A program made the translations under genes and the position numbers. Of a stretch of DNA of 51,132 bases, positions 2,748 to 36,442 are shown piece by piece (the first letter of the stretch is position 1; each line of letters starts with the position of its first letter). The stretch is from a virus, in the IMG/VR virus record IMGVR_UViG_3300047548_000794, positions 1 through 51,132 of that record. One strand, written 5' to 3'. Under the pieces are notes generated by a model. The model did no database searches, was not told the DNA's origin, and saw only the letters and a list, made by a program, of their open reading frames with translations.

Positions 2748-2970
2748 ATGCAGGTGAACTTTTAACAATATTAAGTCTAAAAAACTTAAGGTCTCAAGTA
2801 AGTATACGGTTGTTTACTCAAATTTCAAATCAGTAATATTATATAAAGACGATGAACTACTATATAGACCTAGCAAGGTCTTAGAAGATTGGATTTGTCT
2901 TTTCTTTAAAAATGAATATATAGGTACAATACCTAATGATTTTATAAGGTTTGACTTCTCAAAAGAATAA
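2748..2970 (+). CDS. small gene readable only with a +1 frameshift
   Basis: An ATG at 2748 has a clear ribosome binding site (AGGAG four bases upstream) but reaches TAA at 2763 after five codons (ATG CAG GTG AAC TTT TAA). In the +1 frame, reading resumes as AAC AAT ATT and stays open for 68 codons with protein-like composition, including LEDWICLFFKNEYIGTIP. A shift at TTT-TAA-C resembles the +1 site of the RF2 gene (CTT-TGA-C), but one extra T in a TTTT run would look the same. With the shift the product is 73 residues. Function unknown. Confidence 0.5.
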
Positions 2971-2971
2971 T

Positions 2972-3424
2972 ATGAAGAAATACAATCTAAAAAGATTTAA
3001 ACTTGAAAACAGTATAGATTGGAATGCTCCAACTAAACTTCGCAAGTATTTCAATTCATCTGAGAGACAAGAAGCTAAAAAAGAAATTCATGAAGTTCAA
3101 GAGCTTCTAATAGAAGATAAAGAAATTAAGATAAGAGATAGAGAAGATCTTCATAGAGCTTTAGATAGGAAGTTTAATCAAGTTAGATTTGATTTTGCAA
3201 GAACTCTGCATAAATTTGGAGTAGCGCTAACTCCTGGTGGAGAAAAAACTAACTTTAGAAACACCTATAGCTGGGGAACATTCCACGAAGAGTGGGATTG
3301 GGATGACATGACTGAAGATGAAATGTTAGAAATGTTAACCCTAACAACTAAAACCGACTACGTTATAGACATCAATATGTCAATTAAGCACGCACAATAT
3401 AGCTGGTGGGATGACGACTACTAA
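2972..3424 (+). CDS. unknown protein with RFG-like motif
   Basis: A 150-residue charged protein; start at ATG 2972, just after the previous stop. A lysine/arginine-rich N-terminal half is followed by DFARTLHKFGVALTPGGE, which carries the T-L-x-x-F-G-V-A core of the small-protein family in this window. After it comes an acidic, tryptophan-rich tail (EEWDWDDMTEDEMLEML). This is the longest protein with the motif, suggesting the motif can act as a module. Function unknown. Confidence 0.65.
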   Translation: MKKYNLKRFKLENSIDWNAPTKLRKYFNSSERQEAKKEIHEVQELLIEDKEIKIRDREDLHRALDRKFNQVRFDFARTLHKFGVALTPGGEKTNFRNTYSWGTFHEEWDWDDMTEDEMLEMLTLTTKTDYVIDINMSIKHAQYSWWDDDY

Positions 3425-4192: not shown

Positions 4193-4847
4193 CATTTTAA
4201 AATGCATGCACATGAGTGATACTCATGATACATACCAAGACATAAGCATGTTGGTTCCAGAAGGAACTGATATTGTTTTTATTACCGGTGATGTAACATA
4301 CCACGGTAAACCAGAAGAGCTAAATAGACTTAAAGCCCAACTTAAAAAGATGCTTAATAAGACCATACATGTGGTGATGACAGTTGGAAACCACGAGAAA
4401 GGATGCGAAGCTAATCCCCAGTTATGGATCGATTCAATGAAAGAAATCGGTGTCAAACTTCTTATGCATGAAGCAATTGAAGTTGAAGGATATAAAGTCT
4501 TCGGTAGTCCTTGGACTCCGTGGTTTGGCGGTTGGGCTTATAATTATCATAGAAGTATTGGACATGATATGTGGGAAGCTATTCCATTAGACACAGAGTT
4601 GTTATTAACCCATGGACCACCTTATGGAATACTAGATTATGTCCATGGTGAGAAGGTAGGTTGTATTAATTTATTTAACAAGATTAACAGTGAATTGCCA
4701 GACCTTAAGTATCACATGTTTGGACATATTCATGAAACTCATGGCGAAGCTAAATATAAAGGGGTTCAATTCTTAAATTCTAGTATTATGAATGGTAACT
4801 ATAAGTTTGTAAATAAACCACACCATTTTTGGTTGGATAAGAAATGA
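4185..4847 (+). CDS. calcineurin-like metallophosphoesterase
   Basis: A 220-residue protein starting at ATG 4185 with AGG upstream. All motifs of the family are present in order: HMSDTHD near the N-terminus, TGDVTYHG, TVGNHEKG, LTHGPPYG and FGHIHETHG. They provide the Asp, His and Asn ligands of a two-metal site. The size fits a compact phosphodiesterase; substrates in this superfamily range from DNA ends to cyclic nucleotides and cannot be read from sequence. It is distinct from the SbcD-like nuclease at 44088-45083. A role in removing host or defence nucleotides is possible but inferred. Confidence 0.9.
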   Translation: MSNILKCMHMSDTHDTYQDISMLVPEGTDIVFITGDVTYHGKPEELNRLKAQLKKMLNKTIHVVMTVGNHEKGCEANPQLWIDSMKEIGVKLLMHEAIEVEGYKVFGSPWTPWFGGWAYNYHRSIGHDMWEAIPLDTELLLTHGPPYGILDYVHGEKVGCINLFNKINSELPDLKYHMFGHIHETHGEAKYKGVQFLNSSIMNGNYKFVNKPHHFWLDKK

Positions 4848-5083
4848 TAGCAACAATTGGAAGTTTATTATTAGCATTTTGTGGAGTACCTGAAGTATAT
4901 AGGTCTTACAAAGAAAAGAAGTGTTCAATTGGTTGGGCAATGTTATTAATGTGGCTTTTAGGTGAAATATTACTTATTATATTTGCCTTACAGACTTCTC
5001 AATATTCTTTGCTTATAAACTATTTAGCTAATTGTGGCTTGATAGCAGTGTTACTAAGGTACAAAATATGGCCATCACATTAA
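4844..5083 (+). CDS. PQ-loop / SemiSWEET-like three-helix membrane protein
   Basis: A 79-residue protein with three hydrophobic helices (about residues 2-15, 32-50 and 55-72). The first helix is followed by GVPEVYRSYKEKKCSIGWAM, close to the PQ-loop pattern P-Q-x-x-x-x-x-x-x-K-s-x-x-G; here the Gln is replaced by Glu. Bacterial SemiSWEET sugar transporters are three-helix units of about this size that dimerise. It overlaps the metallophosphoesterase stop by four bases. Transport of a small solute is a reasonable guess; no substrate is evident. Confidence 0.6.
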   Translation: MIATIGSLLLAFCGVPEVYRSYKEKKCSIGWAMLLMWLLGEILLIIFALQTSQYSLLINYLANCGLIAVLLRYKIWPSH

Positions 5084-8971: not shown

Positions 8972-9332
8972 GAAGCGATCTGTTTCTAACGAGATGATCA
9001 AACAGTATGATCAAATGATTGAGTCCTTTCTTAGGAATTCAATTGCAAAGAACTGGAACGAAGCTGATACATCTAGAAACAATGATGAGATTGGCTTAGG
9101 TAATTCCGGTTGGACAATGAGTGATATGAGGCAATATCTCGCCACTGAAGTATTCATTGCATTAAGAAACTATAAAACAGAATTTAAAACAAAAGAAAGC
9201 ACATTTGTATTTGGTCATCTAAATAAGAGAGTTGGTTCTCTTATGAAGAAGCTAACAAAGAAAAGCAAAGGCTATGGCATTTGGTCTTCTAATCTTGAAG
9301 AAGTATTGGGAGAAGTTGACGGAGATGAATAA
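8940..9332 (+). CDS. gp55-like sigma factor (region 2)
   Basis: A 130-residue protein. Residues about 45-110 read NDEIGLGN...[16 protein letters not shown]...[20 protein letters not shown]. This follows the layout of T4 gp55 (NDTIGLA, then a helix with EMIADGIEASIKGLHNF, then AFVQRIKKERKE), which is a reduced sigma-70 region 2. Such proteins direct host RNA polymerase to late promoters. No region 4 follows in the same chain; a region 4-like protein lies at 36044-36442. The match is by eye and moderate. If correct, the TATAAT-type sites on the minus strand could be its promoters. Confidence 0.5.
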
Positions 9333-9487
9333 TGACAAGTGAAGAAATGGAACTTATTGTTGAGCATTTTTTGCACACTTTAGATAAGTTTGGATTAACT
9401 TCTTCAGATTATAGACATCCGTTATATTTAGATGCAGAAGCATTAATGAGTTATTGGTTACGAAATGGGATTGAAGTACATGGATGA
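9332..9487 (+). CDS. 51-residue RFG-motif protein
   Basis: A small acidic protein starting at an ATG that overlaps the previous TAA. The N-terminal helix is followed by HTLDKFGLTSSDY, the T-L-x-x-F-G-L core shared by many small proteins in the window. The end (MSYWLRNGIEVHG) has no parallel elsewhere. It overlaps the next gene by eight bases. Function unknown. Confidence 0.55.
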   Translation: MTSEEMELIVEHFLHTLDKFGLTSSDYRHPLYLDAEALMSYWLRNGIEVHG

Positions 9488-13400: not shown

Positions 13401-13883
13401 ATGAGTTTTGTTCCAAGTGCCGAAGTAAAAGCGCAAGAGAAGAAAGAAAAGAAACCAGACACTTCTGCTGCACCAGCTTCTATAGTGACTCAAGAAGAAG
13501 ACTATTGTGCTGAACTAGATGGTCGTAAGATTGACTTTAGTAAGTATTTAGATAGAACTTTCTTAGTTGCAGTAAGCACAGGTAAAAGAAATTTACCAAA
13601 ACTACTAGCATCTACAATGCGTGGACCATTTGATTTTTATGAAATGGTTGAAGCAGTTGGAAGTATGTATAGAAGAGAACAACACCATGCTAAGGTTTAT
13701 ATTCTTGAAAAATCATTTGAGAAAGGTATTACTTTCTTTGATGAAGGAACAGTTGACTATTTAGAAGCTAATTGGGAAGATATTGTTATGACTGGAATCT
13801 TAGAACAAGAATTCCTTTCTGATGAAGAAGTTATTCCAGCTGGTGGAATTGACCTAGAATATAATCAAGAAAATGCTGAGTAA
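13401..13883 (+). CDS. 160-residue unknown protein
   Basis: The ATG is preceded by AAGGAG at ideal spacing. A charged, disordered N-terminus (AQEKKEKKPDTSAAPAS) leads into a folded domain with LVAVSTGKRNLPKLLASTMR and an acidic C-terminal tail. The length and strong ribosome binding site suggest a well-expressed cytoplasmic protein. No family recognised. Confidence 0.68.
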   Translation: MSFVPSAEVKAQEKKEKKPDTSAAPASIVTQEEDYCAELDGRKIDFSKYLDRTFLVAVSTGKRNLPKLLASTMRGPFDFYEMVEAVGSMYRREQHHAKVYILEKSFEKGITFFDEGTVDYLEANWEDIVMTGILEQEFLSDEEVIPAGGIDLEYNQENAE

Positions 13884-14103
13884 AGACGAATTTCAAGCAT
13901 ATTTAGATGTAAGAATGACAAAAATGTTAATGATAACCTTATATAGGTTGGGAGTAATAGATGACAAAATTATCAAAGGCACTTGGGCTACTCTTAGTAC
14001 TCACTCTTTTAAGTACAGTGGCATGCAGCACACAAACGTACAAACAAAATTCAAAGACATCACAGAGCTCACAAGAGTTATTACAAAAAAGAATGGATGC
14101 TAG
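13873..14103 (+). CDS. small RFG-like gene with nested lipoprotein frame
   Basis: A 76-residue frame beginning 11 bases inside the previous gene. The N-terminal part has MLMITLYRLGVIDDKIIKG, a variant of the T-L-x-x-(F/L)-G-V motif. From 13961 the region is also coding in another frame for a lipoprotein, and that other frame has the clearer signals. Either both frames are used, or this frame's second half is incidental. It resembles the Rz/Rz1 nested layout, although this outer frame has no transmembrane segment. Confidence 0.4.
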   Translation: MLSKDEFQAYLDVRMTKMLMITLYRLGVIDDKIIKGTWATLSTHSFKYSGMQHTNVQTKFKDITELTRVITKKNGC

Positions 14104-14116: not shown

Positions 14117-14676
14117 TGTTATTAAATAAACTAAACGTTAGCGAGAAAGGTTTTGTAGCCTTATTAGAATGCTCCGGTAACGGTAAGCTTCTACAAGAGC
14201 TACAAGACGAATACTTCAGAACCAGAGTGAATATAAAACTCCTGGATTTGTCGTCTGCAACCTTGGTCCTCAAGTGTCCGCTCTTCGTGCAGATGAATCT
14301 CTCTCAACATGGCTTAAGGATTATATCTACTCCGGCGAAAGAAGTAGAAGCTTACGTACCTGATCTATCTGAGATAAATGGTAATTCAGTAGAAGATAAG
14401 CAAGCAATACATGAATATTTAAAGATAACTACAGAGGCTTTATTATTAAACCAACAAGGTCTTCCAATGGATGGAGCTGATAATTTTACAGCTCAAATAC
14501 TAACTCCTATAAGTGTTTATAGTGAGATTATAGTAAGTGGAAACATTAGACAATGGGTGAGCTTTGTTTCTCAGAAAAACCTCCCATCTCAAGTAGAAAA
14601 CTACAGAATAGAAGTAAATAATATACTGGTTAATGAATGGAAAAACCTGGATTCTCTGAAGAAGATATTGTCGTAA
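14116..14676 (+). CDS. possible degenerate ThyX-like protein
   Basis: A 186-residue protein. The C-terminal half (LLLNQQGLPMDGADNFTAQI, then SGNIRQWVSFVSQKN, then QVENYRIEVNNILVNEW) follows the ThyX pattern of LP...T.y..t.N.R.w.hF...R...aQ.EIR..a. In the central region, where ThyX has RHRxxS, this protein has PLFVQMNLSQHGLRIISTP, so the flavin/dUMP signature is missing. It could be an inactive relative or an unrelated helical protein. Its start overlaps the lipoprotein stop. Confidence 0.35.
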   Translation: MLLNKLNVSEKGFVALLECSGNGKLLQELQDEYFRTRVNIKLLDLSSATLVLKCPLFVQMNLSQHGLRIISTPAKEVEAYVPDLSEINGNSVEDKQAIHEYLKITTEALLLNQQGLPMDGADNFTAQILTPISVYSEIIVSGNIRQWVSFVSQKNLPSQVENYRIEVNNILVNEWKNLDSLKKILS

Positions 14677-14825
14677 CTTGGCGTCTATTTAAGACGTTTG
14701 TTAGGCTTAATCTGGCTAGAGTTGATATACATTCATCAGAATGGTTAGCAAATAAAACAATGGACCCTATATGGACGAAACCGAAAAAGACGAAACCAAA
14801 AAGAAAAGAAAAGACCCCAGAATAG
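14637..14825 (+). CDS. 62-residue RFG-like protein with basic tail
   Basis: A small gene starting 40 bases inside the previous one. The core TWRLFKTFVRLNLARVDIHS closely parallels TFVRFGLAKP in the right-arm cluster (35248-36054). The tail is lysine/proline-rich (KPKKTKPKRKEK). It overlaps the next gene by 55 bases in another frame. This is the clearest left-arm relative of the right-arm cluster. Confidence 0.5.
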   Translation: MEKPGFSEEDIVVTWRLFKTFVRLNLARVDIHSSEWLANKTMDPIWTKPKKTKPKRKEKTPE

Positions 14826-16445: not shown

Positions 16446-16878
16446 AGAAAAATACTGGATGGGTATTGCGGAAGCAGTGTCAGCTCGTTCACATGACGAG
16501 GAGACCAAAGTTGGCGCAATATTGGTTAAGAACGATACCGGCATGGTTGTCGCTTCTGGGTTTAATGGCTTTGTTCGCGGTGCTCCTGACGCTTCGTTAC
16601 CTAAGATTCGACCAGACAAGTACAAGTATATGGTCCATGCAGAAGAAAACCTCATGGCTCATTGCGCTAGAAACGGCATAGAGATTGATAATTGTACATT
16701 AGTTATTACTCTTTCTCCATGTCAACGATGTCTAAGGTTAATGTGGCAAGCTGGAATTACACAAGTTATTTGTAGAGATATCTATAGAGATCACTCATTA
16801 GATATGGATGATTTAGATATTGCTCAAGAACAAACAGCAGAAGGGTATTATAGGCTGATATATGATAACAAAGTCTAA
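16423..16878 (+). CDS. dCMP deaminase
   Basis: A 151-residue zinc-dependent deaminase. Start GTG 16423 is preferred because AAGGAAAAAC precedes it; a TTG 30 bases upstream has no such signal. The zinc site is visible as VHAEENLMAH (His and the catalytic Glu) and SPCQRCL (two Cys). The N-terminus has AEAVSARSHDEETKVGAILV, normal for the family. It converts dCMP to dUMP, supplying a TS-family enzyme; together with the TS-like gene at 9625 it forms a pyrimidine branch. Confidence 0.93.
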   Translation: MSNERPSKEKYWMGIAEAVSARSHDEETKVGAILVKNDTGMVVASGFNGFVRGAPDASLPKIRPDKYKYMVHAEENLMAHCARNGIEIDNCTLVITLSPCQRCLRLMWQAGITQVICRDIYRDHSLDMDDLDIAQEQTAEGYYRLIYDNKV

Positions 16879-17026
16879 TATAAATTCACAAGATGTAATG
16901 GATACATTTTTAGATCTGTTTGATACCTTAAATAGACTTGATAAAAGACTACATCCGCCAATATTAAATCGTGGATTGTTTGGATTTGATGTTTATAGAT
17001 TTTGCAAAAAGTGGGGTGTTAAATGA
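16862..17026 (+). CDS. 54-residue small protein, distant RFG-like
   Basis: A short gene overlapping both neighbours (17 bases upstream, ATGA downstream). The product contains TFLDLFDTLNRLDKRLHPP, a possible decayed version of the T-L-x-R-(F/L) motif, followed by LFGFDVYRFCKKWGVK. Assignment to the family is weak. Function unknown. Confidence 0.45.
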   Translation: MITKSNINSQDVMDTFLDLFDTLNRLDKRLHPPILNRGLFGFDVYRFCKKWGVK

Positions 17027-17343
17027 GTGATTTAAAATTGCCAGCAGGTAAGAAAATTAAGCACCCAGTTAGAGAACCAGATATGTATTCTAAGCGTGGT
17101 ATTCCATATTGGTTTGGACCTGAGTGGGTTCGTAGCCAAAATGGATATGTATCTAGGATTAAACCTGTGAAGAAAGATGGTGATGTTAAACTACATACAG
17201 TAAGTAAAGTAGGTGTTGTAACTTATATTCAAGGAAGTATTCAAGAAGAGTTTCAAGCTTGGCACGAAGATAGACAAATTGACTATATCTTATTAGGAAT
17301 CGATGAAGATGAGTTGTGCGCAACAGAGTGGGACTATGAGTAG
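17023..17343 (+). CDS. 106-residue unknown protein
   Basis: A basic N-terminus (LPAGKKIKHPVREP) followed by IPYWFGPEWVRSQNGYVSRI and an acidic end (GIDEDELCATEWDYE). The late segment IQEEFQAWHEDRQIDYILLG resembles the helix-plus-LL ending of the small genes at 282-1156, so a remote relationship is possible. ATGA start overlap with the previous gene. Confidence 0.65.
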   Translation: MSDLKLPAGKKIKHPVREPDMYSKRGIPYWFGPEWVRSQNGYVSRIKPVKKDGDVKLHTVSKVGVVTYIQGSIQEEFQAWHEDRQIDYILLGIDEDELCATEWDYE

Positions 17344-17539
17344 TATAGTAACATTTACTATGGAACCTAACAATTATTTAGAAAGATGTGAAAACAGTAG
17401 ACTTGCGTTTATTGGATTAATGTCTACGTTTTATAGATTTAATGTTATTAAGAAAATGCCAGATGTTTATATGAATGATATTATTAGATTAACTACGTTA
17501 CACGATAGAAATAAAAAGGCGCTCTTGCGAGCGCCCTGA
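17336..17539 (+). CDS. 67-residue RFG-like protein, last gene of the left arm
   Basis: The start is ATG 17336, overlapping the end of the previous gene. The core FIGLMSTFYRFNVIKKMPDV fits T-F-x-x-F-N-V of the small-protein family. The last codons (ALLRAP) are encoded by the terminator hairpin itself, so the gene runs into the convergent boundary. Function unknown. Confidence 0.5.
   Translation: MSSIVTFTMEPNNYLERCENSRLAFIGLMSTFYRFNVIKKMPDVYMNDIIRLTTLHDRNKKALLRAP
17513..17535 (-). terminator. intrinsic terminator at the convergence of the two arms
   Basis: GGCGCTC-TTGC-GAGCGCC forms a perfect 7-bp GC-rich stem with a 4-base loop. On the minus strand it is followed by TTTTTAT, a classical terminator for the right-arm transcripts just after the gene at 17543-17713. 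On the plus strand the downstream tract is poorer (CTGAACTTTATTC), but the hairpin may act in both directions. Confidence 0.85.
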
Positions 17540-29132: not shown

Positions 29133-29162
29133 GTCTAACCGACGTGTGAAGGTCGGTTAGAC
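29133..29162 (-). repeat. 11-bp inverted repeat beside the -10 element
   Basis: GTCTAACCGAC and GTCGGTTAGAC form perfect arms around an 8-base loop. The stop codon TAA of the gene at 29157-29345 is in the first arm. No T-run follows on the minus strand, so a terminator is unlikely; an operator over the -35 region is more likely. Confidence 0.55.
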
Positions 29163-29345
29163 AGGTTGAGCATCATTTTTTGAAGTTTTTTTATGAATTA
29201 CTTGCCATTTTCTTCTGTTTCTGTAAACACCTGAAAGTGGGTAAGAAATTAGGCTTTTCCAACTTATAATGCCGAACCTCGCTAGAGTATCTAGGAAGTC
29301 CGACCTTACATATATCATTTCCATTCTGTCTTCGTATTGTTCCAT
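29157..29345 (-). CDS. 62-residue RFG-motif protein
   Basis: The core DFLDTLARFGIISWKSLISY carries T-L-x-R-F-G-I. The C-terminal half is basic (YRNRRKWQVIHKKTSKND). It follows the exonuclease gene and ends in the 29133-29162 dyad. One of the clearest family members outside the 35-36 kb cluster. Function unknown. Confidence 0.6.
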   Translation of the reverse strand: MEQYEDRMEMIYVRSDFLDTLARFGIISWKSLISYPLSGVYRNRRKWQVIHKKTSKNDAQPV

Positions 29346-31115: not shown

Positions 31116-32579
31116 TTACTTACCCATGTTCTTGAAAACACAGTTAAATCTTGGAGCGTACACGAATAAAGCACCATACAATACGATCGCGAACTCAAGT
31201 GCAGTTGTAACGATAGCAAAGTTGATTTTGCTCAATGGAGCAAGTTGCTTAAATCTCATACATTCAGAAGACATATCTAGTAAGAAAGCTTCTCCCAATC
31301 CCGGTTCTTTAGCACCAGAGTCAACGATAGTTGCATTTGGCTTATAGTTACCGATGAAAGATTCTGTACCAACAGCTCCACCAGCTTGTGAGCGGTAAAC
31401 TTTGATATGCTTAGTAGTAGCAGGGATGTTAGAAAGAGTAAGAGTTACAGCTTGTCCAGCAGTTACACCAGTTACACCACCAGCTTCTTGGATTGCTCCA
31501 GATTCACCGAAATCGTTAACGAAAGTAACTTTGTACTGGTAATCACCAGCGCCAAGACCTTTTGTCCCAGCTGGAGCAGCACCAGCAGCACCAACAACAG
31601 CAGCAGCACCAAGTACTGGAGCGTTTACGATACCAACTGATCTAGTTCTTCCACGTGGACGTAAGAAAAGGTTTGGTTTGAAATCTACTGTACCAGCAGA
31701 AGTAACCATCTTGTTTACATCGTAACCAACAGTTTGTCCAGAAAGACCAGGAGCCGATCTGAATTGTGGATAGAATTGCTTAATGAAACTAGAAAGAGCA
31801 AGAGGCTCAATGTGTAGTTCAGAAGGAGCACCGAAGTTTTCTAGAGCAATAACTGCTAGATCTTCTAGATCGTCCTGAGTAAGAACTGCACCGTCCAAAT
31901 CTTTAACGATTGAACGAACTTCTCCGTATCCTTCGAAGTCTTTTGATTTTTGTTGAGCATCATCGTCACCTTTTACTAATTGTTGTAAAAGACCGTTCAT
32001 AGCGATTGAGTTAGCAGGAAGATCTGAAAGAGCTCCGTTTTGTAACCCAGTAGCTGCGTTAGCGAAGTGAGAGTGACCCCAATACATTTCGCGTTCAACG
32101 TTCTTAAGAAGATCCATAGTTCCTTCTTTAGCTTGTTGAGCAACGATATCACCAACAGTAGTGCGAACTAATGTCATTTGGTGAGATACTTTTCTACGAG
32201 TACCAAAGAATACAATTCTTTGTCCATCGCGGATGTATGTTGAATCAGATTCTTGTGGTGCTCCACCTTCTCCGATATATGGAGAAGCATCTGATCCGTA
32301 ACCGATTAAGCGGTTATATTGTTCGAAAAGGTTGTATGCCTTGTCTACCGAAATAGCAGGCCACATTTTCAAGTTCTTCATATCAAAAGTAACAGACTTT
32401 AAAGTCGATTCTAATGATTCAGCTTGAAGGACACCACCGTAAGTAAGGTCCGTAGGTTTACCAGCTCCACCGTAACCGGCAGTGATGGCTTTGTTTAGTG
32501 CTTCGACTTCCTCAGGAGAAACAATCCCCTGCTCTAGTCCCGAAACGATTTGATTTACAGCATCTTGATTGATTTGCAT
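31116..32579 (-). CDS. major capsid protein with Ig-like insertion
   Basis: 487 residues. After an N-terminal helical segment (about 1-30) comes KAITAGYGGAGKPTDLTYGG and VLQAESLEST, a stretch also found in the prohead protease. The HK97-like core has YIGEGGAPQESDSTYIRDGQ, RRKVSHQMTLV and GHSHFANAATGLQNG. Residues about 345-430 form an Ig/Fn3-like insertion (GDYQYKVTFVNDFGESGAIQ, IPATTKHIKVYRSQ). The gene is preceded by a scaffold-like gene and followed by a strong terminator, as expected of a major capsid gene. Confidence 0.85.
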   Translation of the reverse strand: MQINQDAVNQIVSGLEQGIVSPEEVEALNKAITAGYGGAGKPTDLTYGGVLQAESLESTLKSVTFDMKNLKMWPAISVDKAYNLFEQYNRLIGYGSDASPYIGEGGAPQESDSTYIRDGQRIVFFGTRRKVSHQMTLVRTTVGDIVAQQAKEGTMDLLKNVEREMYWGHSHFANAATGLQNGALSDLPANSIAMNGLLQQLVKGDDDAQQKSKDFEGYGEVRSIVKDLDGAVLTQDDLEDLAVIALENFGAPSELHIEPLALSSFIKQFYPQFRSAPGLSGQTVGYDVNKMVTSAGTVDFKPNLFLRPRGRTRSVGIVNAPVLGAAAVVGAAGAAPAGTKGLGAGDYQYKVTFVNDFGESGAIQEAGGVTGVTAGQAVTLTLSNIPATTKHIKVYRSQAGGAVGTESFIGNYKPNATIVDSGAKEPGLGEAFLLDMSSECMRFKQLAPLSKINFAIVTTALEFAIVLYGALFVYAPRFNCVFKNMGK

Positions 32580-33319: not shown

Positions 33320-33658
33320 TTAAGCACCCATGTTCAATAGATCAGCAGATCCTTGAAGTTCACCCAATGGAATGATAATGTTGTTAGCGTGTCCACAAGC
33401 TACTTGAAGTACTTGTAAATGAATCAAAGTTGTAGGGTTGATTGAGAAGTTGATTTTCCCAGGATTAGCGATACCAATTCCTAAGAATGGTGATACTTGG
33501 TCAGAAACTCCACCCATTGGGCTTTGAATTGATGCATCAACGTAAGTAATTGTAATTCCACCAGCGACAAGAGTAGCTGCATCAGATCTTGATGTAACAA
33601 TTCCTAATTGCTTGCAATTACGTTCGATTTTGTCTAAAATTTGTACACGGTTTGCCAT
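33320..33658 (-). CDS. small virion-like protein
   Basis: 112 residues with strong hydrophobic and glycine content (PFLGIGIANPGKINFSINPT) and no charge clusters. Start behind AGGAGATAGAC. It lies between protease and scaffold genes, where head decoration or minor capsid proteins often lie. Role inferred from position only. Confidence 0.6.
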   Translation of the reverse strand: MANRVQILDKIERNCKQLGIVTSRSDAATLVAGGITITYVDASIQSPMGGVSDQVSPFLGIGIANPGKINFSINPTTLIHLQVLQVACGHANNIIIPLGELQGSADLLNMGA

Positions 33659-33801: not shown

Positions 33802-35208
33802 TTAGATAAGGTTTTTAAGCTTGTCCAATGGAAAGTTTTGATGACATTTGCGACACTTAACTTGATGTTTCATGTAGACTTGTTCATCTCCACAATTATC
33901 GCAGTTAACATATTCTATTCCATCAGATTTCTTACGACCATCTTCTAAAGATTCAGATTGAAGAACTTGGCCACCAGTTGCAGATGTAGGACTTCCTCCG
34001 CCGTAACCAGCAGTCATTGCTTTAAGGAGATTAAGCTTCGCTTTTGAATATTGCTCAGATTTATTTATTTCCATGTGTGATCTTATTTTATCGATTACTT
34101 GTTGTGCCTTTGCAGGATCAACTCCTCTTCCAATTAGATCAGTGTGTACATTTTTAAGATGTCCAATGTCATTCATTGCTTTGTTTGCGTGAATTTGAAA
34201 CATATTTTTTTGCTTAACTTCTTGAGCACTTTTAATAGGTTCAGCTGGAGGAGCTTTTGCAGTAGTTGGCGTTTCGTTTGGTATTTGATTAACTCTTGGA
34301 CCTGAAGTTGCAGCAATCTTTGCTTGACCAATATTTTGTTGATAAGTATCACTTCTTGTAGCTCTAATGTCTTGTTCTTTAGCTTTTACCGCATCTCTAG
34401 TCTGATTGGGTACAGGTTTGATTGCAAGTCCATTTGGACCTATTGCTTTTACTAAGTTATTGATTTTTTTAACATTATCTTCTACTTTTAAAATAGCAGC
34501 TTGTTTCATAATTTGCTCTGGAGATGACTCTGATACATGTATTTCTACACCAATAGTCTTAGCTAATTCCTTGATTTTACTAATATTATCAAAAATAGCA
34601 TTTGCAGAAGCATGACGCTCTATATGTCTAAAAGATGGAATATTAGTCTCAGCTAAGTGCATAACACTCTTAATAAGACGCATGTCTGCTTCCCAATCTA
34701 CACTAGATTTATCTAGATTTAGAGGTTCAACTAGAGTTGCATTATTAGCAGGAGTAAATGTAAGCGCAACAGAATGTATTTTGGTTTGAGCAAGCCTAGA
34801 AGGATCTGAGATTCCTCTGGCCATAACTCCACCTTCAACAGAAGCTTTCATCTTTAAAGGAATATCTTCTCTGTGGACGTTTTTCATGATGGCAGCTGCA
34901 GCACGAGCATTTGGATGATCTTCATCATTATAAAGTTCACCAGCTACGTAGATATAAGGAGCTTTTATCTTCTCCCAGTAGTACTTATGTCTCTCATTAT
35001 CACAATCTTCAGCTTTGAAGATCTTTTTAGCGGATGTAACTCTACCGATAGAGTTAAAGAAGCCTTTTCCATGGTTATCGTTAAGACGACCATTTCCATT
35101 TTGTAAGTCACTAATATCAGCACCTTCTACACTTAAAGTCTCCCCTTGAGTATCTTTAAGCTCTGAACCTGCACACATATCTATAAGTAAGCGCTTATTT
35201 TTAGCCAT
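33802..35208 (-). CDS. prohead protease with C-terminal zinc ribbon
   Basis: 468 residues. The N-terminal protease domain has LNDNHGKGFFNSIGRVTS (candidate His), KMKASVEGGVMARGI (candidate Ser) and KIHSVALTFTPANNAT, the layout of phage head-maturation serine proteases. A long helical middle may act as a scaffold. Near residue 395, KAMTAGYGGGSPTSATGG and QVLQSESLE match a segment of the capsid N-terminus. The last 45 residues form a zinc ribbon (CDNCGDE then CRKCHQNF). The catalytic assignment is by eye. Confidence 0.75.
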   Translation of the reverse strand: MAKNKRLLIDMCAGSELKDTQGETLSVEGADISDLQNGNGRLNDNHGKGFFNSIGRVTSAKKIFKAEDCDNERHKYYWEKIKAPYIYVAGELYNDEDHPNARAAAAIMKNVHREDIPLKMKASVEGGVMARGISDPSRLAQTKIHSVALTFTPANNATLVEPLNLDKSSVDWEADMRLIKSVMHLAETNIPSFRHIERHASANAIFDNISKIKELAKTIGVEIHVSESSPEQIMKQAAILKVEDNVKKINNLVKAIGPNGLAIKPVPNQTRDAVKAKEQDIRATRSDTYQQNIGQAKIAATSGPRVNQIPNETPTTAKAPPAEPIKSAQEVKQKNMFQIHANKAMNDIGHLKNVHTDLIGRGVDPAKAQQVIDKIRSHMEINKSEQYSKAKLNLLKAMTAGYGGGSPTSATGGQVLQSESLEDGRKKSDGIEYVNCDNCGDEQVYMKHQVKCRKCHQNFPLDKLKNLI

Positions 35209-35247: not shown

Positions 35248-35391
35248 TTACTTATAGCTGGGATAGATCCTATATTCTTCACCTCTTCCGCTATCTGCGT
35301 CGGGGTTCCAAAAGGACATGTAAGGTTTTGCTAAACCGAATCTAACAAAAGTTCTATATAAACTATCTCTAATTATTACATCTTCTTTCAT
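35248..35391 (-). CDS. 47-residue RFG-motif protein (cluster member 4)
   Basis: MKEDVIIRDSLYRTFVRFGL followed by AKPYMSFWNPDADSGRGEEY. The TFVRFGLAKP core is the best match to the family consensus. The start overlaps the end of the previous cluster gene by four bases. The tail after the motif is polar and aromatic, and unrelated to the tails of the other three. Function unknown. Confidence 0.65.
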   Translation of the reverse strand: MKEDVIIRDSLYRTFVRFGLAKPYMSFWNPDADSGRGEEYRIYPSYK

Positions 35392-35657
35392 ATTTTAAAT
35401 TGTATAGTGTGAGTTCCAAAAGGAAGGCCACTTATTGTAATACTATTTGATGTAATTTGGTAATCATTGGGATTTAGACACATTCCATCTATAAATATTC
35501 TAGTTGATGAGTTAGGTACCATATTTATTTGAACTCCAGTTCCAACAAATGTAGCTGACGTGCTCATTAATGGTTTAGCAAGCTTAAACCTAACACAAGT
35601 ATCATAAAGTGCGTACTTTATCATATCGTGGGTATATATATTATTAAGTTGATTCAT
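35388..35657 (-). CDS. 89-residue RFG-motif protein (cluster member 3)
   Basis: An N-terminal helix with YALYDTCVRFKLAKPLMSTS, the motif variant T-C-x-R-F-K-L-A-K-P, then a beta-rich domain (GTGVQINMVPNSSTRIFIDG, then ISGLPFGTHTIQFKI) resembling a small beta-sandwich such as those on virion proteins. Coupled to both cluster neighbours. The domain pairing suggests the motif is an adaptor helix. Confidence 0.65.
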   Translation of the reverse strand: MNQLNNIYTHDMIKYALYDTCVRFKLAKPLMSTSATFVGTGVQINMVPNSSTRIFIDGMCLNPNDYQITSNSITISGLPFGTHTIQFKI

Positions 35658-35815
35658 TCAGTTCCTAGATTATTAATAGTTATATTATTACAACTATTAG
35701 TAATGTCTAAGCCAGTTCCATAAAATGTTATTGTAACATATTGAGATTTTGCTACACCAAATCTTACAAAAGTTTCATGTAAGTTGTTTCTAGCTTTTCT
35801 TTGTTCGTTTGTCAT
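35654..35815 (-). CDS. 53-residue RFG-motif protein (cluster member 2)
   Basis: The product is MTNEQRKARNNLHETFVRFG followed by VAKSQYVTITFYGTGLDITN. The motif here is T-F-V-R-F-G-V-A-K. The tail (NNITINNLGTE) is a short beta-like stretch, and GTGLDI parallels GTGVQI in the next protein, so the tails are partly related. Overlaps both neighbours. Confidence 0.65.
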   Translation of the reverse strand: MTNEQRKARNNLHETFVRFGVAKSQYVTITFYGTGLDITNSCNNITINNLGTE

Positions 35816-36054
35816 TATTTACCTAATTGTCCAAGTAAACCAGTAAAGACAGAAGGGCTCACTATTAATTGTGTTGGGTAATGTCCATACATCGAAGCAG
35901 CCATTGCTGCTGCTTGTTCTAAATGTGCTGCACCAGCTTCCATCATTGCTTCAATAGGATCTGGCTTTGCAATTCCAAATCTACGAAATGTCTTAAGAAG
36001 TCTTTTTGTTGCCATTTCTTTTTCTATAGTAGTTGTATATTTATTATTCATCAT
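35815..36054 (-). CDS. 79-residue RFG-motif protein (cluster member 1)
   Basis: Residues about 15-35 read KRLLKTFRRFGIAKPDPIEA, the T-F-x-R-F-G-I-A-K-P core. The rest is an alanine/methionine-rich helix (EAGAAHLEQAAAMAASMYGH) ending in FTGLLGQLGK. First gene of a four-gene tandem array sharing the motif. Starts 11 bases inside the sigma-like gene. Confidence 0.65.
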   Translation of the reverse strand: MMNNKYTTTIEKEMATKRLLKTFRRFGIAKPDPIEAMMEAGAAHLEQAAAMAASMYGHYPTQLIVSPSVFTGLLGQLGK

Positions 36055-36442
36055 TATTCATGTCCTTAATAATGTCCATCTCTTTGATCTTTTCCATGGC
36101 TTTTGATTCTATTTTCTTAACAGTTTCAACAGATACATTATTCATATGAGCAATTTCTTTATCTGAGGGAACTTCTGATAGATAGTCTTTTACATAATTA
36201 AAGAAGCAGTAATTAGAAAGTTGATGAGCAATGGACCACGGACAACCTGGAAGTTTAGCTTCTTGCTCTTCTGTTAATTCATCAGGAGAATTTCTCAAAG
36301 CTTTAAGACGAAGTACAGCAAGAGGACAATACTCGCACGGTAATTCGTCTAACTTTCTAGGGCATCTTGGGTCCATTGGTCTATCTGTCATAAATCCTTT
36401 AAGTGATTCATCATAAAATCTATTCTTTCGGAGTCCGAGCAA
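36044..36442 (-). CDS. sigma-70 region 4-like DNA-binding protein
   Basis: 132 residues. The first half has cysteines (CPRKLDELPCEYCPLAVLRL, then LPGCPWSIAHQLSNYCFF) that may bind metal. The C-terminal part EVPSDKEIAHMNNVSVETVK, then KIESKAMEKIKEM, is a region 4-type helix-turn-helix. A family of this layout is known to me in phages, annotated as sigma region 4. It may work with the gp55-like protein at 8940 as a split sigma factor, or as an independent regulator. Confidence 0.6.
   Translation of the reverse strand: MLGLRKNRFYDESLKGFMTDRPMDPRCPRKLDELPCEYCPLAVLRLKALRNSPDELTEEQEAKLPGCPWSIAHQLSNYCFFNYVKDYLSEVPSDKEIAHMNNVSVETVKKIESKAMEKIKEMDIIKDMNNDE

Follow-up and report, generated by a model that had tools for sequence, protein, structure and literature searches.

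One short amphipathic helix recurs on otherwise unrelated small proteins in most of a clade of uncultured SPO1/Mx1-like myophages, with 15 to 37 members in most near-complete genomes. The pattern of a constant helix with variable tails, which a preliminary description had drawn from four adjacent genes, is thereby extended to a whole family. Several of the small helix proteins also carry pieces of virion proteins, and together they suggest a large, unrecognized toolkit of docking or decoy proteins. The reading we prefer, at roughly even chances, is that the common helix docks to a shared partner, that the variable tails give specificity, and that the tails that mimic virion proteins compete.

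Much of the gene content of big phages consists of small hypothetical genes, which as a rule are regarded as orphans with no relation to one another. Up to one-fifth of those in this clade carry one and the same element, and the finding of a single partner could explain dozens of them. The case for a new family is made from the sequence-level pattern together with the failure to find a described family, and the mechanism is put forward as a proposal.

The four-gene slot and further copies in the window

The window, i.e., the whole 51-kb stretch (51,132 nucleotides) of uncultured-virus DNA analyzed here, carries on its minus strand a head module like those of SPO1/Herellevirus and Mx1, with genes for terminase, portal, prohead protease, a scaffold-like protein, and the major capsid protein (MCP). 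The four ORFs previously reported at 35248 to 36054 are all present on that strand, i.e., genes A (35815 to 36054, 79 aa), B (35654 to 35815, 53 aa), C (35388 to 35657, 89 aa), and D (35248 to 35391, 47 aa), the gene calls being mechanical and the start codons of small ORFs uncertain. They occupy a slot bordered by a conserved Cys/HTH sigma-like gene (36044 to 36442, minus strand) directly upstream of A and by the prohead protease gene (33802 to 35208, minus strand) directly downstream of D, the product of which matches the head maturation protease phrog_1028 (E = 7e-10). The described coupling of the genes is borne out by overlaps of 1, 4, and 4 nt at A/B, B/C, and C/D (TAATG, ATGA, and ATGA, respectively), and A in turn shares 11 nt with the HTH-like gene upstream of it.

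The cores are exactly as first quoted, TFRRFGIAKP in A (starting at residue 22), TFVRFGVAKS in B (residue 15), TCVRFKLAKP in C (residue 19), and TFVRFGLAKP in D (residue 14). They lie within a shared helix that covers residues 15 to 31 of A (35962 to 36012), 8 to 24 of B (35744 to 35794), 13 to 29 of C (35571 to 35621), and 7 to 23 of D (35323 to 35373). Identity is 62% over 21 residues between C and D and 67% over 15 between B and D; with the kinship of the B and C tails, this indicates that A to D are one tandem family and not four unrelated genes. The core of C alone reaches 8.1 bits, under the threshold of 10.5, and a tblastn search with C against named phages gave chance matches only.

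Six more helix-bearing small ORFs in the window had been overlooked in the preliminary description. Family members are a 76-aa protein with MLMITLYRLGVID (13873 to 14103, plus strand; 23.2 and 18.7 bits in two scorings), a 62-aa protein with WRLFKTFVRLNLA (14637 to 14825, plus strand; 16.3 bits), another of 62 aa with DFLDTLARFGIIS (29157 to 29345, minus strand; 16.4 bits), and a 51-aa protein with HFLHTLDKFGLTS (9332 to 9487, plus strand; 16.4 bits). Two more, of 78 aa with GLMSTFYRFNVIK (17303 to 17539, plus strand; 13.2 bits) and of 54 aa with DLFDTLNRLDKRL (16862 to 17026, plus strand; 13.1 bits), are probable members. In addition, a 157-aa protein (2951 to 3424, plus strand) contains an internal copy of the motif, ARTLHKFGV, at 18.5 bits and is among the very few longer proteins that have it.

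Two other head-module genes of the window deserve mention. A conserved 112-aa protein (33320 to 33658) has an N-terminal helix, ILDKIERNCKQLGIV, with a weak motif score that may be due to chance. The C-terminal part of the prohead protease, a protein of 468 to about 990 aa in relatives, has the segment LLKAMTAGYGGGSPTSATGGQVLQSESLEDG, followed by a zinc-ribbon-like end; the segment is very like ALNKAITAGYGGAGKPTDLTYGGVLQAESLEST at the N terminus of the MCP (31116 to 32579), and from this resemblance the two probably represent a shared maturation or docking site.

Among about 100 related loci gathered via MCP and portal, A to D themselves were confined to near-identical contigs. Elsewhere among the relatives, the slot was empty, held a homing endonuclease, or held one to three small ORFs with a diverged helix, the last in L004, L005, L007 (three), L011, L048, L052, L056, L059, L060, L063, L067, and L089 (two). 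A search with the exact core pattern matched only the window and near-identical contigs because the core diverges, so that a profile was needed. The stretch between the HTH-like and protease genes is also a hotspot of HNH and GIY-YIG-like homing endonucleases (e.g., L008, L016, L025, L034, L068, L071, and L075), and in L007 a gene for an ErpA/IscA-like iron-sulfur carrier protein (4592 to 4975) separates the helix genes from that of the protease.

Extent of the helix family across the clade

An 18-column profile was grown from the slot cores and iterated on the 971 small ORFs of the fetched records. At a threshold of at least 12 bits it detected 163 of them, where shuffled sequences gave about 2.5 and reversed ones 5, with no excess among proteins longer than 200 aa (2 versus 3 shuffled). 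In held-out genomes, members accounted for 16 of 144 small ORFs in G005 and 15 of 170 in G006 (no more than 0.2 expected), 7 of 93 in G016 and 5 of 120 in G003 (no more than 0.6 expected), and 0 of 80 in G013. A shorter, 14-column profile, which admits the motif at the extreme C terminus, raised the number of small-ORF members to 232 against about 6.5 expected from shuffles, with 37 of 210 small ORFs in G001, 33 of 193 in G008, and 31 of 144 in G005. The helix is thus carried by about 7 to 20% of the small ORFs in most of the related uncultured myophages. Absence of the motif from other genomes would have told against the preliminary description; the profile search gave the opposite result, other phages of the clade having it widely, with dozens per genome. 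It is essentially absent from Mx1 (0 of 113), SPO1 (1 of 132), T4 (1 of 99), and Bacteroides phage DAC16 (0 of 130).

The view that no described family accounts for the motif also held in our searches, which yielded no Pfam, PHROG, or PDB match. Neither A to D nor further members scored above a curated Pfam cutoff, 60 members giving only single subthreshold matches; PHROG returned nothing significant for A to D or for the 60 members; and the best hit of a profile search of the PDB had an E value of 0.98. No known HTH family was among the Pfam results, and the fold predicted for one group (see below) is β-β-α-α-β, not HTH. No description of such a helix family was found in the open-access literature, which was the scope of the survey, subscription papers lying outside it.

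The records analyzed are metagenomic. Three GTDB contigs binned as Bacteroidota suggested a host in that phylum, but this was set aside: Shine-Dalgarno-like sites precede about half of the large genes, much as they do in T4 and SPO1, and Bacteroides phage DAC16 is without the helix family.

Members cluster in small-gene regions, where they form arrays of 4 to 16 consecutive and often overlapping genes, the most striking being at L173:8690-11145 in G005. It is part of a run of about 25 consecutive tiny genes (L173:5889-11145), nearly all with the helix, which is the densest array seen and in which several proteins end exactly in LLxKLGV(I).

These locations bear on whether the helix might be a virion-targeting signal resembling the T4 capsid-targeting sequence (CTS), by which tagged small proteins would be packaged in the prohead and injected together with the DNA. 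In its favor are the position of A to D directly upstream of the prohead protease gene, a second orthologous group located after the portal gene, and the hypervariability of the locus. The CTS, for its part, is a short tag able to bring nearly any protein into the head (PMC7697877), and T4 internal proteins that have it likewise combine one short common peptide with unrelated remainders near a head maturation protease (PMC7697877). It is the known element nearest in form to the helix. However, the CTS is strictly N-terminal, about 10 aa long, cut off by the protease, and found on a handful of proteins, whereas the helix may be N-terminal, central, or C-terminal and is present on 15 to 37 proteins in the majority of complete genomes, chiefly outside the head module and in small-gene clusters away from it. 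The N-terminal position of the core, noted at first for A to D and correct for them, does not extend to the family: 101 of the 163 members have the motif at the N terminus, 38 in the middle, and 24 at the C terminus (i.e., 62 of 163 not N-terminal), and the C-terminal copies of the G005 array depart from the N-terminal rule of the CTS. Targeting to the virion would also leave the capsid and baseplate copies in the tails unexplained, and overall we regard it as improbable.

Conservation and structure of the helix

The motif has the consensus L[LIF]x[LTV]Lx[KR]L[GND][ILV]. Conservation extends over about 15 residues, with L6, [LIF]7, [LTV]9, L10, [KR]12, L13, [GNDK]14, and [ILV]15 followed often by S/D and A/P, and its borders are sharp: relative entropy reaches 2.9 bits inside the motif and is mostly <0.3 (<0.35) outside columns 2 to 18, the flanks being unconserved. 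The pattern is that of an amphipathic helix with hydrophobic positions 3, 6, 7, 10, and 13 and a G/N/D-I/V cap. The polar column 12, K/R in about 72% of members, is as conserved as several of the core columns.

Codon use indicates that the motif is kept by selection on the protein. At the motif residues of paralogs, the same-codon rate was at the expectation from codon usage in seven of the eight genomes with at least 10 sites (e.g., 0.308 observed versus 0.351 expected), showing that no DNA-level repeat is involved and that the copies are old rather than fresh; the exception was G010 (11 sites), with 0.594 versus 0.387 expected. In orthologous pairs, dN/dS was mostly 0.08 to 0.3, a few strongly diverged pairs giving higher values, consistent with the helix genes being real. 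Derivation of the helix from the capsid protein was discarded, the MCP scoring 0 bits or less at every position.

Structural information comes mainly from a group of portal-adjacent orthologs of about 50 aa (L048:2797-2955, L052:1965-2111, L056:2119-2283, L139:15346 in G002, and others), for which 11 sequences were aligned. The group is predicted with high confidence (pLDDT 92) to fold as strand-strand-helix (residues 16 to 31)-helix (37 to 44)-strand, with the motif accounting for the latter half of helix 1 together with the cap. Foldseek searches with the model gave best E values of 0.79 against the PDB and 0.53 against viral predicted structures.

The model is a ground for the strongest rival to shared docking, namely that the helix is only the hydrophobic core of a small β-β-α(-α-β) fold, and the family a set of fast-diverging paralogs with many functions and no common partner, in which the motif is the part that can still be recognized. 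The C-terminal-type members of the G005 array have a hairpin-like DGxxxLxYD segment before the helix, and a weak hydrophobic periodicity follows the motif, both in keeping with such a fold. On the same model, a pure linear-motif reading is not certain, one confidently folding group having the helix inside a compact small domain, and the conservation of the helix in the portal-adjacent orthologs may only reflect folding, which would count against the shared-partner reading. However, the hairpin is missing both in D, which has only about 6 residues before the helix and 24 after it, and in a 38-aa protein of G005 (L173:7401), where a capsid segment replaces it. The helix is therefore not tied to the β-β-α-α-β fold, which is not common to all members. 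Furthermore, the strong conservation of the polar column 12 is not required by packing alone. A mere fold core is on balance rather unlikely in our estimation, though it is the alternative to be taken most seriously.

Virion-protein segments in the tails and proposed mode of action

The tails of A to D had been taken to differ from one another and to act on different targets. The first point does not apply to B and C, the tails of which are related, and those of A and D resemble virion-protein segments; as to the second, at least two of the four are not arbitrary, D having a conserved segment of a tail-region protein and A one resembling a capsid segment. The D tail, SFWNPDADSGRGEEY (35272 to 35316), copies residues ~124 to 138 of a ~1,200-aa tail-region protein. 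In a set of 3,742 ORFs, its pattern, W[ND]P...[SDG]G.G.E, is restricted to members of that tail-region family and to three motif proteins, D among them; the slot proteins L052 and L089_2 also have it. In the A tail, a P..L.[IV]SP segment (35818 to 35892) resembles MCP residues 248 to 273; the likeness is weak when taken alone (4 of 17 identities), and the pattern is confined to 12 MCPs and three motif proteins. B has a short, beta-like tail, GTGLDITNSCNNITINNLG, and matches at E = 0.07 a 1,094-aa large protein of G004, presumably a tail fiber. The related tail of C is longer and beta-rich, with strands in an AlphaFold model of low confidence (48.7) and a match to the Pfam E-set TcfC family that lies below the cutoff (E = 0.008).

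When the members, with the motif masked, were compared with HMMs of 116 large-protein families, eight tails matched at 8 bits or more, versus 0.4 in shuffled tails, and five at 10 bits or more, versus 0.1. Residues 46 to 82 of the MCP (N-arm) are copied in L105:17970 of G007 (27.7 bits) and in the slot proteins of L067 (19.3 bits) and L063 (16.1 bits), and MCP residues 241 to 267 in L007_2 (9.1 bits). Outside the slot, L118:17773 of G008 copies residues 1 to 19 of the tail sheath (13.4 bits), a family identified by phrog_279. L007_1 carries residues 12 to 43, at the N terminus, of a baseplate-J-like protein (10.0 bits), so named from its position and the annotation of the corresponding Mx1 gene as baseplate J-like, and L052 carries residues 122 to 138 of the ~1,200-aa tail-region protein (9.6 bits). 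Terminase copies had also been considered for slot proteins of L007 and L067; the former was dropped because the baseplate-J-like N terminus matches much better, and the latter because the likeness was unsupported.

Clear virion-protein mimicry is limited to roughly 10 to 15 of the >230 members, which, like the weak MCP likeness of A, the fiber match of B/C at E = 0.07, and the low core score of C, counts against the preferred reading. The copies are concentrated in the slot that holds A to D, and the same few segments recur across genomes. A screen of 1,163 small ORFs without the motif gave a single clear fragment of a virion protein. This was the 38-aa L173:7401 protein, which consists of a copy of the MCP N-arm and then a C-terminal LLSKLGV; with this ending it belongs to the helix family. 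L105:17970 and L118:17773 appear to share their second half, one with an MCP piece and the other with a sheath piece, so that the mimic part looks exchangeable.

The virion-like tails could alternatively be debris, i.e., gene fragments captured beside helix genes via homing-endonuclease repair or template switching and with no mimic function. Homing endonucleases have often inserted into this slot in relatives, and similar fragments are known in T4, where alt.-1 and alt.-2 carry the annotation of an old partial duplication of alt. Codon sharing is also somewhat above expectation for the L052 and sheath-type copies. The MCP-type copies, on the other hand, share codons at identical residues only at the expected rate (8 of 17 versus 8.8, 6 of 12 versus 7.3, and 4 of 13 versus 6.8 expected). 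For most copies, codon sharing at chance level indicates that the likeness is old and was kept at the protein level after synonymous sites had been randomized. With the recurrence of the same few segments in different genomes, this makes capture without function a poor prospect, on a par with virion targeting.

In the preferred reading, that of a helix docking to a shared partner, the proteins would be a fast-diversifying, clade-restricted family built on one short amphipathic helix. The docking idea of the preliminary description is plausible on these sequence data. The helix would be the common working part and bind one family-wide partner, which could be a hub of either host or phage, or else the same helix on sister proteins, while the remainder of each small protein would supply specificity. 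Capsid-, baseplate-, or sheath-like tails would compete by occupying whatever recognizes the copied segments. This could be a host sensor that detects virion proteins or a partner in assembly, and it would then be blocked or else recruited to the shared partner. Should the mimic proteins be decoys, their copied segments would show directly which parts of the capsid, sheath, and baseplate proteins are recognized by host sensors or assembly factors. A more specific version, in which the arrays form a decoy system, with virion-like baits occupying the recognition sites of host defense sensors for virion proteins, the helix recruiting a shared hub that disables these sensors, and other members baiting other host targets, we consider distinctly unlikely.

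Large viral multigene families with a common docking module and variable parts are known from poxviruses, in which an F-box-like module of the ankyrin/PRANC proteins docks to a ubiquitin ligase and variable parts bind targets; the likeness is one of organization in a eukaryotic virus, with no sequence relation claimed. T4 Srd and Srh are annotated as postulated decoys of host sigma factors and likewise imitate another protein, but unlike the virion-mimic tails they imitate host proteins and are without a common helix. A precedent for the mechanism proposed for these tails is DSAD1, a phage inhibitor of the defense sirtuin DSR2 that occupies the position of the phage tail tube protein on this host sensor (PMC11087589), although it is a single larger protein outside any shared helix family. 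For the assembly option, the prophage tail assembly blocker Tab is similar in that it, too, is encoded by a phage and affects the assembly of virions, through recognition of a tail protein (PMC10884400); in contrast to the helix family, it is a single prophage gene directed against other phages and not a mimic family.

Gene presence and absence yielded no hub candidate, GroEL- and ClpP-like genes also occurring in Mx1, which is without the motif. The phages do encode ClpP/head-protease-like serine proteases, a family with about 23 members across the records examined, and a GroEL of their own (in G002, L145:9368-10039 and L140:15033-16724).
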